Of a stretch of 64,000 nt of DNA, positions 26,535 to 62,901 are shown piece after piece. The notes under the pieces were generated by a model that did no database searches, was not told the DNA's origin, and worked only from the letters and a program-made list of their open reading frames with translations. The stretch comes from Sulfurimonas crateris. GTDB lineage: Bacteria; Campylobacterota; Campylobacteria; Campylobacterales; Sulfurimonadaceae. A program made the position numbers and the translations under genes. The stretch's first letter is position 1. Each line of letters opens with the position of its first letter. The DNA lies in NCBI RefSeq assembly GCF_005217605.1, contig NZ_SZPX01000001.1:62001-126000 (forward strand), in the 5' to 3' direction.

Positions 26535-26540
26535 TATAAT
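26535..26540 (+). promoter_or_regulatory. -10 box of purT
   Basis: TATAAT placed so that transcription would start near 26547, just before the structured leader. It gives a leader of about 139 bases. Confidence 0.5.
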
Positions 26541-26561
26541 TCCTTTAACTCAACAAAGTAG

Positions 26562-26667
26562 TTTTAACTCTCTTGCTATACTTAACTTAGGCTTCACCTT
26601 GGGTGCCCCAAAATCAAAGATTTTGACCCTAAGGTTGCAGAATCGTTCGTATAGCATGTAGTTAAAA
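26562..26667 (+). promoter_or_regulatory. structured leader RNA of purT, riboswitch-like
   Basis: Nested stems are visible. Outer stem: TTTTAAC (26562-26568) with GTTAAAA (26661-26667), and GCTATAC with GTATAGC inside it. Next: ACCTT with AAGGT, then GGGT with ACCC. Terminal hairpin: CAAAATC-AAA-GATTTTG. Unpaired segments are TTAGGCTTC (5' side) and TGCAGAATCGTTCG (3' side). The same unpaired segments recur in the znuA leader at 58521-58632 (minus strand) with different but still pairing stems. It ends 18 bases before the purT ATG. It does not match TPP, ZTP, PRPP, folate or purine riboswitch consensus sequences as I know them. Confidence 0.65.
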
Positions 26668-26685
26668 TATTTACAAGGAATTATT

Positions 26686-27849
26686 ATGCGTTTCTCCGCT
26701 CCTCTAAAATCAAACTCAAAAAAAATTATGCTTCTAGGCTCAGGCGAACTCGGCAAGGAAGTTGCTATTGAAGCTCAAAGACTCGGTCTTGAAGTCATAG
26801 CAGTCGATAGATATCAAAATGCACCTGCACATCATGTAGCACACAGAAGCTATGTTGTAAATATGCAGGATAAATATGCAGTTTTGGAGATCATCCACCG
26901 TGAAAAGCCTGATTATATTCTGCCTGAGATCGAGGCTATAAGTATTGATGCCCTTTTTGCGGCAGAGGATAAAGGTTATAACGTTATTCCAAACGCAAGT
27001 GCCGTTAGTAAGACGATGAACAGAAAAAATATCCGTACATTCGCGGCGGAAGTTTTAGGTTTAAAAACAGGTCCTTATGAGTTTGTCACAACAAAAGAGG
27101 GTTTAAAAGATGCGGCCGAGCGTCTTGGTTTTCCTTGTGTTATTAAGCCTGTTATGAGCTCTTCGGGACATGGGCAGAGTGTAGCTAAAAGTGCAGAGGA
27201 TATCGATGCTTCATGGGAGATAGCAAAAGAGGCGCGCGGTGATGCAAGCGAGCTTATTGTAGAGGCTTTTATAGATTTTGATTATGAGATAACGATGCTA
27301 ACTGCAAGAAACGGCAGCGAGACCGTTTTTTGCGAGCCGATAGGGCATGAGCAAAAAGGCGGCGACTATGTGTTCTCATGGCAGCCTATGCAGATGAGCC
27401 CGCTTGCAAAAGAGCGCTCACAGGAGATCGCTAAAAAGATAACTGACGGTCTTGGCGGGCGCGGTCTTTTTGGCGTTGAACTATTCATAAAAGGTGATGA
27501 GGTCTACTTTTCCGAAGTATCTCCTCGTCCTCACGATACGGGGATGGTAACGCTTATTACTCAGTCTCAAAGCGAGTTTGCACTTCACCTAAGAGCCGTT
27601 CTTGGTCTTCCGCTTGGTTTTACCTTCTACGGTGAAGGGGCAAGTGCCGCATTTAAATCGGAAGTTCACAGTTACGCTCCTGTTATAAGTGTCGATGAGA
27701 GCCTCTTTAGTGACAACAGTTTTGTTAGAATTTTTTCTAAACCTGAAGCGCATAAAGGCAGAAGATTGGCGGTCGCACTTGTCTTTGATCAGGCAGATAA
27801 AGCACTAGAGAGAGCAAGAGAGCTGATCCAAAACATAAAGGACAGCTAA
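26686..27849 (+). CDS. purT: formate-dependent phosphoribosylglycinamide formyltransferase
   Basis: PurT makes formyl-GAR from GAR, formate and ATP in purine biosynthesis, independent of folate. The 387-residue ATP-grasp protein has the N-terminal [30 protein letters not shown] and the IEAISIDAL segment. The ATP-grasp loop is [14 protein letters not shown], and the metal-binding region FFGVELF-like ([27 protein letters not shown]) has the expected Glu residues. AAGGA precedes the ATG at 26686. It follows a structured leader and is followed immediately by a dehydrogenase gene (next ATG at 27850), so the two are coupled. Confidence 0.95.
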
Positions 27850-56868: not shown

Positions 56869-57607
56869 CTGCTTTTTTTGATGTTGCCAAAACAGCAACA
56901 GCGGTTAAAAATGCGCCTAAAAAGACTACGCTGTAACCAGTCGGTAAATCATAAAAGTATGATAGTGTAATTGCGCTTATACTAAAAAACCATCCAAAAA
57001 AGAAACTGCCCAGCAAAGGTTTTTTAAAGTTTAAAGAGAGCGCTACAAAAGGCGGTGCGATAAGAAGCACAAAAACCACAAAAACTCCAGCAAGCGCAAC
57101 CGAAGAGGTAACGGTAATGGCAAGAAGCGAGAAGAATAGAAGCTCCTTTAAAAAACCGCTGAGTTTTGGGTAGATAAAGTAGAGAGCAAGGGCGATAAAT
57201 GAGTATATAACAGCACTCTTTGCAACTTCAACCGGAGGGGTAAAGAGTATATCGCTTGCCAGAAGTGATTTGAAATGCTCCATCCCCTCAGCCGAGTGAG
57301 AGAGCACCATCATAATCCCGCTCGCCCCCAAAACGTAAAGTATCCCTATAAAGGCCTCAAGATGGAGTTTTCTAGTTGAAGCAAATGCTATAAGAAAGGC
57401 GCTTAGAAGTGCAAAACCAAGTGTTAAGATATAGAAGTGCTCTTCGTGAAAATAGCCAAGGCTGATGGATGAGCCAAGGGCTGCGAACTGTGCGATGGCA
57501 AGGTCGGTAAAGATGATGCCGCGTTTTAGTATCTCCATGCCAAAGTAGGAGTGAAGCATCACAAGTATGATGACAAGCGCAATGGGAACAAGCAGGATAT
57601 CTATCAT
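56858..57607 (-). CDS. znuB: metal ABC transporter permease (ZnuB-like)
   Basis: The 249-residue permease of the ABC-3 (zinc/manganese) family has about seven helices and typical segments MEILKRGIIFTDLAIAQFAALGSSISL and EAFIGILYVLGASGIMMVLSHSAEGMEHFKSLLASDIL. The SVALAGVFVVFVLLIAPPFVAL segment is also conserved. The start overlaps the znuA-like stop by 4 bases. No ATPase subunit gene (znuC) is adjacent, so it must be encoded elsewhere. Zinc is the likeliest substrate but manganese or iron cannot be excluded. Confidence 0.88.
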   Translation of the reverse strand: MIDILLVPIALVIILVMLHSYFGMEILKRGIIFTDLAIAQFAALGSSISLGYFHEEHFYILTLGFALLSAFLIAFASTRKLHLEAFIGILYVLGASGIMMVLSHSAEGMEHFKSLLASDILFTPPVEVAKSAVIYSFIALALYFIYPKLSGFLKELLFFSLLAITVTSSVALAGVFVVFVLLIAPPFVALSLNFKKPLLGSFFFGWFFSISAITLSYFYDLPTGYSVVFLGAFLTAVAVLATSKKADEN

Positions 57608-58482
57608 TTTATCGCACTTGTCAGATGGTCAAAGAGGGCGCTCAGGTTGTCAATATTCTCAAGCGCTTCTATATCGTGAGGCATTAAAACAACCTTGATT
57701 CCTGCCTTTTGGCTTATAAAATCGGCTGTTTTTGTTGAGTGGTAAACATCATGTAGTATGCAGCAAGGACCCTCTTTTTTTATAAGCTCTATCGTTTCAA
57801 TCACATGTTTTGAAGATGGCGGAATGCCAGGCAAAGGCTCTATAGTACCAATGTTTATAACTCCGTACGCTTTGTTAAAGTAAGCCAAGTTGTCATGAAA
57901 CTGTATGACTTTTAGACCTTTTTTATCACTCATCTTTTGGCTCCACTCGCGCATCTTTTGGTTCCACATCTTTGAAAATTCGGCATAGTTTTTTTCATAG
58001 ACTTCTTTATCAACTCTGTCGATAGAGATTAAAAACTCTTTAATTGTATTTGCCAGATGCAGAATATTTTTTGGGTCAAGATGAAAGTGCGGATTGCCAT
58101 CAGGATGGATGTCGCCATCTTTTCTATCGACTTCACTTGGCTTGTTTATAAGCTCTACATGATGCGAGAGATTTAAAAATGTTGCAGATGATGGCGAAGT
58201 TTTCGGATTGCCTGCGCGGTTTATAAGAGGGGGAAGCCAGCCGATTTCAAGCTGTCCTCCGTTCATAATGAGCGCATCAGCATTTCTAACTTTTGCGATT
58301 AGCGAAGGGCGCGGAATGATAAAGTGCGGGTCCCAGTTTCCCTTTGCTAAAACCGTAGTCGTAATATGCTCCCCGCCTATTGTTTTAGTAAGCGCCCCAA
58401 TGTATGGGTAGCTTACTGCGATATTTAGATGAGCTAACAGTGTTAGCGGCAGCAGTGTTATAAGTGTTAGTAGTTTTTTCAA
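57604..58482 (-). CDS. znuA: metal ABC transporter substrate-binding protein (ZnuA-like)
   Basis: The protein is about 292 residues with an N-terminal signal peptide (MKKLLTLITLLPLTLLAHL). Metal-site histidines of cluster A-I proteins are seen: His in WDPHFIIPRPSLIAK, His in GNPHFHLDPKN, and His in IQFHDNLAYF. The EPLPGIPPSSKH loop is characteristic. I chose the TTG at 58482 because GGAG lies five bases upstream and a good signal peptide follows; a TTG at 58503 has no such site. It sits behind a structured leader and upstream of znuB, in the metal-handling cluster. Confidence 0.88.
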   Translation of the reverse strand: MKKLLTLITLLPLTLLAHLNIAVSYPYIGALTKTIGGEHITTTVLAKGNWDPHFIIPRPSLIAKVRNADALIMNGGQLEIGWLPPLINRAGNPKTSPSSATFLNLSHHVELINKPSEVDRKDGDIHPDGNPHFHLDPKNILHLANTIKEFLISIDRVDKEVYEKNYAEFSKMWNQKMREWSQKMSDKKGLKVIQFHDNLAYFNKAYGVINIGTIEPLPGIPPSSKHVIETIELIKKEGPCCILHDVYHSTKTADFISQKAGIKVVLMPHDIEALENIDNLSALFDHLTSAIK

Positions 58483-58520
58483 ATGTACTCCAATCTGCCT
58501 CAAATGAGGCTAATAAATTT

Positions 58521-58632
58521 CTTTTATAACCTTACGAAGCGAATGATTCTGCAACGGAAGGGTCAAATCTCGCACGGCGAGATTTGGGGTACCCACCGTG
58601 AAGCCTAAATGAGCGAGTATGTGTTATAAAAG
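58521..58632 (-). promoter_or_regulatory. structured leader RNA ahead of znuA, same class as purT leader
   Basis: Read on the minus strand, outer stem CTTTTATAAC / GTTATAAAAG (10 bp) encloses TTAGGCTTCAC, ACGG/CCGT, TGGGT, CCCCAAA, a hairpin TCTCGC-CGT-GCGAGA, TTTGACCC and GTTGCAGAATCATTCG. Unpaired blocks equal those in the purT leader, while the ACGG/CCGT stem (ACCTT/AAGGT in purT), the terminal hairpin and the outer stem differ but still pair. It lies between the porin stop and the znuA start, 39 bases before the latter. It may act inside the operon or after an undetected promoter. Confidence 0.65.
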
Positions 58633-58641
58633 ATTTTCTAA

Positions 58642-59910
58642 TTAAAAACTATGAGCACCGTGCGCGCCGATAGAGATATTTGCCTGAAGGATGATAGTGT
58701 TTATCTTCTCTCTTTGACCGTCTTCGTTGAACATTGCATAATCTTGGCTGTACTGCAGTCTGAATCTTGCAAACTCGCTTGTGTGATACTCTACCATTGC
58801 CGTGTATTTGTCAAGACCGTCTGGCTGTTCTACGTCAAAACCCGCTTTAGTAACATCATTTTTCAAAATAGTATCGTATCTTAGACCCATTTTCCAGTTT
58901 TTATCGTGCGTATAGATAAGCTGTGAGTAGAGACCGCTCTGTTTTTTAAGCATAGATGGCGAGCCTGTTACGTTTCCGTCCACATCCAGTGCAAATTGAG
59001 TACCGTCAAGCTCTCTCTCCAAATATTCACTCTGCCATTTTATAGAGCTGTATGAATCCAAAGAGTGTAAAAGTACAAAATCCGCACCGTATAGTTTTGC
59101 ATCGCCTGAAAATGCATGCGGGTTCTCTGCGTCTGCGCTGTGGTCAATTCTTGATGTACCTTGCGCATAAGAGATACCGCCGAGGATTGTTGTGTCGCCT
59201 ATATCGTGAGAGGCTTTGATGTAGCCTACATAAAGAGCAGGACCATCTTCGCCCTCTGCTATCGGGTTTTCAACATCGCCGATAGTCTCTTTGCCGAACA
59301 TCTGCTCGTTTTCGCCCTGAAGTATCTCAAAACCTGCCATCAGGTAAAAAGGAGTAGGCGCTGTCCATTGAATCTGTGCACCTACTTCATTGATACCGTG
59401 CATTCCTAAAAATGACTCATAAACCAAAGGCATATCTGCAAAATCCCAAGAATGATGGTGATGTTCGTTGAGGTAACCGAAGTTTGAGTTAAACTTCCCG
59501 CCCTTCAGTTTTGTGCCGTGCCCAAGAGCATTTGAGGTAAAGAAAAGCTCCTCAATTTCAACGCCGTTCTCTGAGAAGTGAAATATACCGTCCATTGTAA
59601 AGAACGGGTCAACCGAGCTAGATAACACAAGCTCTGCATAGTTTAGGTTAAATCCATTCTCTGCATTGTAAGTCGCATGATTGTCATCGCCATGAGAGTG
59701 TGAACCAAGCAGACCGTGAACCACACCAGGGACTTCGAGGTGCCCAACTTCTGCATCTTTTACACTTCTATCAACATAAGAAGCATCCATGACCAAAGAG
59801 ATATCTGGAATAAATTTTGACTGATCAAAAGTTCTTTTTTCTACCGGAAGTACATCCGCACCATAAACTAAAGTCGCGCATAGTGCGCTTGATAATAATA
59901 TTTTTTTCAT
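58642..59910 (-). CDS. His-rich outer-membrane porin-like protein
   Basis: The 422-residue beta-barrel protein has a signal peptide (ends near VYGAD), many aromatic amphipathic strands and a terminal Phe (GAHGAHSF). Several His clusters stand out: GLLGSHSHGDDNHAT and YLNEHHHHSWDFADMP. They suggest metal binding or metal passage at the surface. The family resembles uncharacterised porins found next to zinc-uptake genes. It is followed by the znuA leader and genes, so an outer-membrane partner for metal uptake is the likely role, but this is an inference. Confidence 0.72.
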   Translation of the reverse strand: MKKILLSSALCATLVYGADVLPVEKRTFDQSKFIPDISLVMDASYVDRSVKDAEVGHLEVPGVVHGLLGSHSHGDDNHATYNAENGFNLNYAELVLSSSVDPFFTMDGIFHFSENGVEIEELFFTSNALGHGTKLKGGKFNSNFGYLNEHHHHSWDFADMPLVYESFLGMHGINEVGAQIQWTAPTPFYLMAGFEILQGENEQMFGKETIGDVENPIAEGEDGPALYVGYIKASHDIGDTTILGGISYAQGTSRIDHSADAENPHAFSGDAKLYGADFVLLHSLDSYSSIKWQSEYLERELDGTQFALDVDGNVTGSPSMLKKQSGLYSQLIYTHDKNWKMGLRYDTILKNDVTKAGFDVEQPDGLDKYTAMVEYHTSEFARFRLQYSQDYAMFNEDGQREKINTIILQANISIGAHGAHSF

Positions 59911-60333: not shown

Positions 60334-62901
60334 GTGTTTCATACAAAAAGCGCAGAAGAGACTCTTGGGGGTTTAGAGTGCAGCGTTGATGGGCTAAGTA
60401 GTGAGGAGGTTGCGCTTCGCGCTCGTCACTACGGTAAAAATGTTTTACCCGAGGGTGAGAAGCGCACTCTTTTAAATATATTTATTGAACAGTTTAAAAG
60501 CCCTGTCATCTATGTTCTGCTTATCGCTGCCGTTATATCTCTGGCTATCAAAGAGTTCAGTGATGCCGGTTTTATTATGGCGGCGCTTCTTGTCAATGCC
60601 GTAGTTGGAACATATCAGGAGTACAATGCCGGCGAGAGGGCGGATGCTCTTAAAAAAGTGATTAAGACCTATGTGAATGTCTTAAGAGACGGCAACAAAG
60701 TAGAGATACTAAGCGAAGATGTGACATTAGGCGATATTGTCTTTTTTGAATCAGGCGTAAAGGCTCCCGCCGATATACGTCTTATAAAAACAAATGATCT
60801 GCAAGTAAATGAATCGCTTCTTACAGGCGAGTCTATCGAAGTAAGCAAAAATCCACAATATATCTCTCAGGACGAAGATGAACCCATAGGAGAGAGACAG
60901 AATATGCTCTACGCCGGCTCTTTGGTTACAAAAGGTCGGGCATTTGGAGTTGTAACAGCGATCGCACAGCAGACGGAAGTCGGTAAAATAGCCTCTCTTC
61001 TGGCAGAGGCAAAGATCGCAAAACCGCCGTTGATGCTTAGAATGGAGAAGTTCTCTTTCAACATCTCTAAAATAATAAGCGGCGTTGCGCTGCTTATCAT
61101 CATGCTCGGCGTTTATCAGGATATGCCGCTAAAAGATATCTTTTTTCTCACGGTAGCTCTTGCGGTATCCGCCATTCCCGAAGGGCTTCCTGTCGCAATT
61201 ACTGTCGCGCTTAGCGTTGCAAGCAGTGTAATGAGCAAGAGAAATGTAATTGTGCGCAAGCTCTCCGCAATTGAAGGGCTTGGTTCATGTACATTTATAG
61301 CAAGTGACAAAACAGGAACTATGACGCAAAACCGTCTAAGCGTTGAACACTTTATAACTCCCGAAAAAACTTATAGCAGCAGCGAGGCAGTAGATGAGCA
61401 TATAGTTTTAAGTGCTCTTTTATGCAATGAATCAACTCATCGTAAGGAGGAGGGAGAGTATCTCTTTATAGGCGATCAGGTGGATATAGCACTATCGAGA
61501 TATGCCCTGCTGCTTGACGAGACTCTTTTTAAAAAGTTTGAAAACATAAAGCCAATCGCACAGATCCCTTACGAACCTCTCAATAAATACTCGGCCTCAA
61601 GCTATGAGATCGATGGCAAAAAAGTTGATTTTATTAAAGGCTCACCTGAGGTCATTCTTGCCAAAAGCGAACTTGCCAATGATGAGAAAGAGCACGCTTT
61701 AAAACAGGTTGATGAGTGGGCGGCTAACGGGTTTAGAAACATAGCTTTGGCATACAGAGTGAACAGCGGCAGTGGCATCGCAGAGGATGGTTATGTATAT
61801 CTTGGATTTGCGGCTATAACCGATCCGCTCAGAGAGGGAGTTAAAGAGGCTCTGCGCACTGCAGAAGAGGCGGGAATTGAGGTGGTTATGGTTACTGGCG
61901 ATCACCCAAATACCGCATTTTATATAGCTAGAGAACTCGGTATTGCCGTAAGTAGAGATGAGATAATGGACGGAGTGGCGATCGCTCACTGGAAGGAGAG
62001 GGGAGCGCAAAAAGAGGAGATAGCAAGCAAGCGCGTCTTTGCAAGGGTTTCTCCCGAGCAGAAGCAGCTTATAGTCAAAACATTTCAAGAACTCGGTCAC
62101 TTTGTAGCGGTAACGGGTGACGGTGTAAATGACGCGCCCGCACTTAAGTTTGCAAACATCGGTATAGCTATGGGCAAAAGCGGTACGGATGTAGCCCGTG
62201 AATCAAGTGACTTGATACTCACAGATGACCACTTCGGTTCTATCGTTAACGGTGTTGAAGAGGGGCGCGTAGCGTATGACAATATCAGAAAGGTCATCCA
62301 TCTTCTTATAGCTACGGGGTTTGCAGAGATAGTGCTCGTGCTCCTCTCGATCATATTTTTTATCCCCATTCCGCTTCTGCCCGTACAAATACTCTGGCTA
62401 AACCTTGTTGCAAACGGCATACAGGATGTCGCACTGGCCGTTGAGAAGGCTGAACCGGGAGTGTTAAAACGAAAGCCGCGCGATCCAAAAGAGCCTATAT
62501 TTAACAGGACTATGATAAGCAGGGTGGTTGTGGGCGGTTTGCACATGGGTATCTCGGCATTTGCTCTTTTTTATACACTGCTTGAGTTTGGGTATCAAGA
62601 GGAGGCGGCAAGAAATATCACACTGCTTATGATGGTACTTTTTGAGAATGTTCACGCTTTTAATTCACGCAGCGAGAACAGATCAATCTTCAAGATCGAC
62701 CACGCTAAAAATATGCTTTTTTGGATATCCGTCATCTCTGCACAAGGCATTCATATGATAGCGATGTACACACCTTTTATGCAGTCCATACTCAGTGTTC
62801 AACCGGTTAGTTTGGAGATGTGGGCAACACTGCTGCTCATTGCCCTGACCTTGGTAGCGGTGATGGAAGCAGAGAAGTTTTTTAGAAAAAAATTATATTG
62901 A
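60334..62901 (+). CDS. P2-type cation-transporting ATPase
   Basis: The 855-residue pump has the cation-ATPase N-terminal domain, LLTGESIEVSKN (actuator), VSAIPEGLPVAITVAL (M4 with Glu, as in P2 calcium- or magnesium-type pumps), SDKTGTMTQN (phosphorylated Asp), TGDHPNTAFYIA and TGDGVNDAPALKFANIGIAMG. Ten membrane helices are expected. The absence of N-terminal CxxC domains and of a CPC motif excludes P1B heavy-metal pumps. The start is the GTG at 60334 (GGAG seven bases upstream). Divergent orientation to the zinc-type cluster suggests shared metal control. The ion (Ca2+, Mn2+ or other) is undecided. Confidence 0.92.
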   Translation: MFHTKSAEETLGGLECSVDGLSSEEVALRARHYGKNVLPEGEKRTLLNIFIEQFKSPVIYVLLIAAVISLAIKEFSDAGFIMAALLVNAVVGTYQEYNAGERADALKKVIKTYVNVLRDGNKVEILSEDVTLGDIVFFESGVKAPADIRLIKTNDLQVNESLLTGESIEVSKNPQYISQDEDEPIGERQNMLYAGSLVTKGRAFGVVTAIAQQTEVGKIASLLAEAKIAKPPLMLRMEKFSFNISKIISGVALLIIMLGVYQDMPLKDIFFLTVALAVSAIPEGLPVAITVALSVASSVMSKRNVIVRKLSAIEGLGSCTFIASDKTGTMTQNRLSVEHFITPEKTYSSSEAVDEHIVLSALLCNESTHRKEEGEYLFIGDQVDIALSRYALLLDETLFKKFENIKPIAQIPYEPLNKYSASSYEIDGKKVDFIKGSPEVILAKSELANDEKEHALKQVDEWAANGFRNIALAYRVNSGSGIAEDGYVYLGFAAITDPLREGVKEALRTAEEAGIEVVMVTGDHPNTAFYIARELGIAVSRDEIMDGVAIAHWKERGAQKEEIASKRVFARVSPEQKQLIVKTFQELGHFVAVTGDGVNDAPALKFANIGIAMGKSGTDVARESSDLILTDDHFGSIVNGVEEGRVAYDNIRKVIHLLIATGFAEIVLVLLSIIFFIPIPLLPVQILWLNLVANGIQDVALAVEKAEPGVLKRKPRDPKEPIFNRTMISRVVVGGLHMGISAFALFYTLLEFGYQEEAARNITLLMMVLFENVHAFNSRSENRSIFKIDHAKNMLFWISVISAQGIHMIAMYTPFMQSILSVQPVSLEMWATLLLIALTLVAVMEAEKFFRKKLY

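Follow-up and report, generated by a model that had tools for sequence, protein, structure and literature searches.

We find that the leaders upstream of purT and znuA in Sulfurimonas crateris are probably copies of a MITE-like palindromic mobile element with a conserved structured core, and that they most likely do not constitute a shared metabolite switch. Both lie within the window, by which we mean the whole 64,000-nt stretch of contig NZ_SZPX01000001.1 analyzed here (positions 62,001 to 126,000), and an earlier note had described them as a riboswitch-like leader RNA in front of the two genes. Each leader would be a short, non-autonomous palindromic element of about 80-170 nt that was presumably mobilized in trans by a transposase of the IS5 type. 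In the less decayed families, sequence matches show its outer arms to be terminal inverted repeats of IS5-family insertion sequences. The conserved core, made up of an internal loop, P2, P3 with its CCCC bulge, and the apical hairpin P4, occupies the apex of the long hairpin. A resident copy may alter leader folding or mRNA stability, by analogy with ERIC, for which an effect on mRNA stability is reported in a review (PMC2229807).

The purT-side copy is read on the plus strand, with a left outer arm at 26562-26585 that pairs in the predicted fold with the right outer arm at 26650-26667. Its core at 26586-26649 (internal-loop strands, P2, P3, CCCC bulge, and P4) is assigned from a match to the covariance model R1 (G000:C1:88586-88649) and from covariation, and purT itself, encoding formate-dependent phosphoribosylglycinamide formyltransferase, follows at 26686-27849 (plus strand) as a neighbor outside the element. 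The znuA-side copy is read on the minus strand and comprises a core at 58540-58609 (R1 match G000:C1:120540-120609), a 5' outer arm at 58610-58632 placed by the fold and by terminal-repeat similarity, and a 3' outer arm at 58521-58539 placed by the fold and the arm test. It sits between the gene for a 422-aa protein (58642-59910, minus strand), which gave no Pfam or NCBIfam match, and a znuA-like metal-binding protein gene (57604-58503, minus strand; PF01297), likewise outside the element. A third copy in the same genome, the last of its three R1 matches, lies between gpmI and fabG. Reading both window stretches confirms the near-identical unpaired blocks noticed earlier, which are TTAGGCTTCAC, GGGT-N-CCCCAAA, TTTGACCC, and TTGCAGAATC-N-TTCG. 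It equally confirms stems that are unlike in sequence and still pair (ACCTT/AAGGT versus ACGG/CCGT, and an apical hairpin of 7 bp versus 10 bp), in agreement with the covariation across relatives. The pattern TTAGGCTTCACN{2,6}GGGTNCCCC matches exactly twice in the window against a mean of 0.00 in 100 shuffles, and the folding of the two stretches beats 200 of 200 shuffles (z of -5.2 and -4.8).

The model R1, built from the three copies of this genome, recovered many relatives, and the motif and its covariation are both present in them, which the covariance-model search of related genomes proposed by the earlier note was meant to test. The core is laid out as GGCTTC - P2 - GGGT - NCCCC - P4 - GACCC - P2' - TTGCAGA within long outer arms. 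Among 99 distinct aligned copies (alignment A7, drawn from 100 sources of our own choosing and having sources in common with alignment A6), the covariation score is 0.408 against 0.136 when shuffled, a value reached by 0 of 500 shuffles, and it falls to at most 0.084 when the partners are slid; as the alignments were fitted to the model, these figures lean towards it. In A7, 96.2% of cells pair and 11 of 14 pairs show changes on both sides, while further pair types do not rise above shuffles (24 vs 23.4); an overlapping set of 76 distinct copies scores 0.244 against 0.072. RNAalifold, run unaided, calls P2 and P4, with 10 of 12 pairs changed on both sides, does not call P3, and adds to P4 a single C-G pair that reaches into the bulge. 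The covariation shows that P2 and P4 exist as stems; since P3 (GGGT/ACCC) is nearly invariant, its pairing is one that we only infer. The claim of a conserved, covarying structure is thereby borne out.

No family in Rfam 15 matches either window copy, the matches at E up to 10 being weak and far under the gathering scores of their families, and none matches the elements in ten further loci, which agrees with the earlier judgment that the leaders fit no known riboswitch class. Searches for such elements in these bacteria, in literature mostly outside subscription journals, listed no paper on them by title, which is not proof that they are undescribed.

The distribution is patchy and multicopy. 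At least one copy was recovered by R1 in 10 of 60 genomes in the search of relatives and in 51 of 398 Campylobacterales genomes, the window's genome being included in both. The largest number, 30, occurs in Sulfurospirillum sp. bin3007 (G062), several of them at contig ends; the 398-genome scan applied the stricter filters of Infernal and a ceiling of 13 scored candidates in each genome, so that its copy numbers are to be taken as minima. An exact-pattern scan of contigs found at least 80 loci, and among the matches listed all were Campylobacterota records. A viral or plasmid origin was rejected, as one exact pattern gave 0 matches in viral contigs and blastn gave none in plasmids and phages. 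After exclusion of L015 (26 bits, E 0.0017) and, as duplicates, of L183 and doubly fetched loci, 168 distinct copies were left. Flanks of 60 nt or more on each side were available for 156, which entered the arm tests, and of 600 nt or more for 133, which were used for neighboring genes. Two copies stand inverted about 50 nt apart at L182 (G417:C1:2407350-2407522), and the same is seen in G429. The family is thus short, non-coding, palindromic, and multicopy, as bacterial MITEs are.

Neighboring genes were assigned by a longest-open-frame rule, not from annotation. Ten of the 133 well-flanked copies lie inside an open frame and one has no neighbors; the 122 classified copies are tandem and co-oriented with both neighbors (49), divergent (29), tandem and opposite (27), or convergent (17). 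Regulation of purT and znuA by a genuine riboswitch or other cis-acting leader would agree with the conserved structure, with the position of both window copies, which end 37-55 nt before the start codon, and with the co-oriented gene downstream of 78 of the 122 copies, an excess for which we do not account. Yet 44 of the 122 have no co-oriented downstream gene, 17 of these being the copies between convergent genes, and the downstream and neighboring genes, once listed as the earlier note had proposed, prove unrelated and widely differing, with no constant class.

Comparison loci point the same way. After searching 60 genomes of the genus for the sequences flanking the three sites and aligning the loci, we found an R1 copy at 0 of 22 purT, 0 of 5 znuA, and 0 of 14 fabG loci. 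Outside these counts, the fabG copy is also found in G004, G023, E10, and KA11 and the znuA copy in KA11; at the fabG site and at a further site at rnhB, a few species share the element. Orientation, the variety of genes, and the orthologous leaders, together with the lack of an Rfam class, are accordingly at odds with a riboswitch of purT and znuA, a reading that fails and that we give next to no credence. Most relatives have these genes without the element, so that the idea of a leader belonging to purT and znuA is not supported, and an element dispersed in every orientation requires no ligand common to the two. Of the accompanying statement that this is a conserved structured RNA rather than a repeated DNA element, the first half holds in that the structure is conserved and covaries, whereas the second does not, the element being dispersed, multicopy, present in all orientations, and in many copies furnished with IS-type ends.

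The sites themselves illustrate how the element may have arrived. The purT leader of many relatives is a plain hairpin (in G004, ATAATTCCTTCAT-loop-ATGAAGGAATTAT) with a stem that varies on both sides between species. In the window's genome the element sits within the loop of this original hairpin, the plus-strand stem halves of which are retained at 26536-26545 (ATAATTCCTT) and 26675-26684 (AAGGAATTAT). Sulfurimonas sp. UBA6792 (G069) carries an 86-nt short-core relative in the same purT loop in the opposite orientation (L278), a further point against a purT riboswitch. At L084, the site minus the element and one TA is a perfect 26-nt palindrome. Such cases hint at insertion into the loops of hairpins or the centers of palindromes. 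At the L105 site, G076 lacks the element, and G069 also lacks it but keeps a short stretch resembling the end of an arm; with the comparison loci, this constitutes presence/absence variation at orthologous sites as in MITEs.

Several of these sites show other features. The purT leader hairpin of relatives (L140, L144, L150, L152, and L153) includes the ribosome-binding stretch, and this hairpin may itself be regulatory. At the gpmI-fabG site of G011 (L142), arms are present without a core, reflecting either an exact loss of the core or an older hairpin that lacked one. Insertion of the core alone into ready-made hairpins, which the G011 case brings to mind, was not adopted as the leading interpretation, since the purT insert has arms of its own and the G011 arrangement could have come about by deletion between short direct repeats. 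A different structured-looking repeat (GCTCATTCTC...CGAGTGCTTAATTTTAC...GCCCTCGAACCGCTC) occurs at the znuA site of G023 (L172) and at the fabG site of G020 (L176), so these intergenic sites attract several repeat families.

The arms connect the family to insertion sequences. Their complementarity exceeds the 99% level of shuffles in 104 of 156 copies, and in many copies they match the terminal repeats GACTTCTTGCATAACC and TTGAACCCTCTGAATAA of IS5-family elements (NCBIfam NF033581, transpos_IS5_4); the element differs from these in having no transposase gene, and its core was not seen in the ISs examined. The arm sequence of some Sulfurimonas copies, TIR1 (GACTTCTTGCAAAAC), gives 92 matches with at most one mismatch in 16 of 22 genomes, compared with 9 matches in 6 genomes for the reversed control, often as inverted pairs 76-906 nt apart. 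Among the TIR1-ended forms are L272, an insertion sequence of 906 nt that has two open frames, a deletion form of 334 nt, and MITEs whose lengths range over 76-266 nt. The L272 frames match PF13359 and PF13613 as well as portions of the IS5 model of NCBIfam, each alone falling below cut-off. The window's own genome has a 266-nt MITE with TIR1 at both ends and another interior, located before fabZ (L288, G000:C6:27674-27939). TIR2 (TTGAACCCTCTGAATAA) is the arm sequence in a Sulfurospirillum-like family and ends the ISs at 7 of 13 examined IS5-model loci (two in G259 and one each in G205, G124, G439, G408, and G194), these elements measuring 1.22-1.25 kb with one at a contig edge. Four of the remaining loci have other ends and two have no clear ends.

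In 64 of 156 copies, both arms match TIR1 or TIR2 better than the 99% level of shuffles, copies from the same genome not being independent, so that with the IS ends the family as a whole carries the terminal inverted repeats of an autonomous element, as expected of MITEs. Matches to the IS5 model are present in 14 of the 51 genomes that bear the element and in 34 of the other 347 (p=0.001, with no correction for kinship). On the other side, 92 of the 156 copies do not pass this test, and in the present genome, where the IS5 model is not matched at E 1e-10, only the znuA copy matches IS5-type terminal repeats, its 5' arm being TIR1-like in a decayed form (p about 0.0045); the purT copy, with a left arm whose TIR1 match is not above chance (p about 0.09), and the fabG copy (0.89) show no clear terminal repeat. 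Moreover, the arms of the 13 copies in G124 are unlike TIR2 even though this genome contains a TIR2-bearing IS, and no clean target duplication is evident, TA at both ends being seen in 12 of 16 listed TIR1 pairs (one spurious) and in only 6 of 18 and 5 of 31 core-bearing copies. An origin of the core within an IS was rejected after three 8-9 nt motifs, with at most one mismatch allowed, gave one stray match in eight ISs. Nor was an autonomous element recognized between close inverted copy pairs, the open frames there resembling ordinary genes as judged by eye. Multiple and patchy copies, all gene orientations, unoccupied sites, and IS5-type arm matches nonetheless argue for a MITE-like element, against these points and against the excess of co-oriented copies.

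It could also be speculated that the hairpin is REP-like or IS200/IS605-like and moves as a single strand by means of a Y1 transposase, which would suit its strand-asymmetric folding and a slight enrichment of Y1_Tnp (30 of 51 element-bearing versus 153 of 347 other genomes, p=0.052). This is very unlikely, as the arms match IS5-type repeats instead and PF01797 has no match in the copy-rich G124, G020, G310, G148, and G216 or in the window's genome; with so weak an association, a Y1/RAYT mover was rejected.

Another point against a MITE-like origin is that the cores at orthologous sites are more conserved than a dead repeat predicts. At the fabG site, cores differ by 1.6-11.1% where fourfold sites differ by 31-42% (10 pairs), and at the rnhB site by 1.6-6.6%, gaps left out, versus 56-59% (3 pairs). 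In L052 and L080, which occupy the same site, 68 of 69 core bases are identical while the arms are much changed and still complementary; in L050 and L062, and in part L104 and L006, it is the inner hairpin that is replaced, with arms hardly changed. Upstream of rnhB (L029/L075, L066, and L020), the core stands with little or no outer arm in three species, about 35 nt before the gene, and may there be a copy taken into host use; the rnhB-site copy of G016 has some 41 additional bases in its apical hairpin.

The strand on which such a core would act can be approached from mismatches. A.C mismatches are less well tolerated by a folded strand than G.T or G.U ones. Among 118 copies with an arm alignment score of at least 12, A.C mismatches in the arms outnumber G.T by 98 to 48, and A.C-rich arms prevail over G.T-rich ones in 22 versus 8 genomes (p=0.016), one genome supplying 25 to 4. 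In 37 of 53 genomes (p=0.009), it is the reverse complement that gives the better fold. Given this tolerance, the A.C excess modestly suggests that the relevant folded strand is probably opposite to the one first read.

It can therefore be hypothesized that the 63-70-nt core is an undescribed functional structure, RNA or single-stranded DNA and probably of the opposite strand, that is kept in place by selection (fabG, rnhB) and spread on the apices of IS5-derived hairpins, the mobile arms being a mere vehicle, replaced yet complementary. The similarity of the fabG- and rnhB-site cores relative to fourfold sites, the covariation of P2 and P4, and the strand asymmetries all favor such a role; we nevertheless consider it doubtful, though a genuine candidate. 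Likeness of the core at orthologous sites could arise from selection in place, hot-spot re-insertion, conversion between copies, or palindrome template-switch correction, and at the fabG site P3 no longer pairs in the G004 copy. As to the strand, core mismatches (28 A.C to 7 G.T) shrink to 10 to 7 minus one pair, and in the purT copy the first-read strand folds slightly better than its reverse complement.

Placing the MITE-like element among known systems gives additional context. A review (PMC2229807) describes bacterial repeats that measure 100-200 bp, carry terminal inverted repeats, have TA at their ends, and form long stem-loops, and a mobile palindromic repeat is, by that account, an already known kind of element. 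Like the ERIC/IRU/RU-1, Correia/NEMIS, RUP, and RPE repeats covered there, ours is small, non-coding, and dispersed, with terminal inverted repeats in the family as a whole, TA ends in part of the copies, and a long stem-loop, ERIC being likened to it by described properties only. Unlike those MITEs, it has a core with covarying multi-loop conservation common to families with different terminal repeats, and its host range here is the Campylobacterales. It shares intergenic hairpins, at times in inverted pairs (L182), with the REP/BIME elements of RAYT transposases, but is much longer and without a convincing Y1 transposase link. With riboswitches it shares conserved unpaired blocks and covarying stems, and it differs from them in having no constant gene class or orientation, in its absence from most orthologous leaders, and in the lack of an Rfam match.

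A strongly covarying "orphan riboswitch" can thus turn out to be a mobile repeat, and orientation, unoccupied sites, and terminal repeats are simple tests that separate the two. As a repeat family with a conserved fold, this one will recur in the annotation of Sulfurimonas, Sulfurospirillum, and Arcobacter and in riboswitch searches there. Its unusual trait is the core, which recurs in families whose ends differ, is alike at orthologous sites, and may serve some role itself. If so, a structured RNA or single-stranded DNA module would be travelling on the ends of a transposon, and if the conservation in place reflects selection, the element would be a good case of a mobile hairpin possibly recruited into host service.
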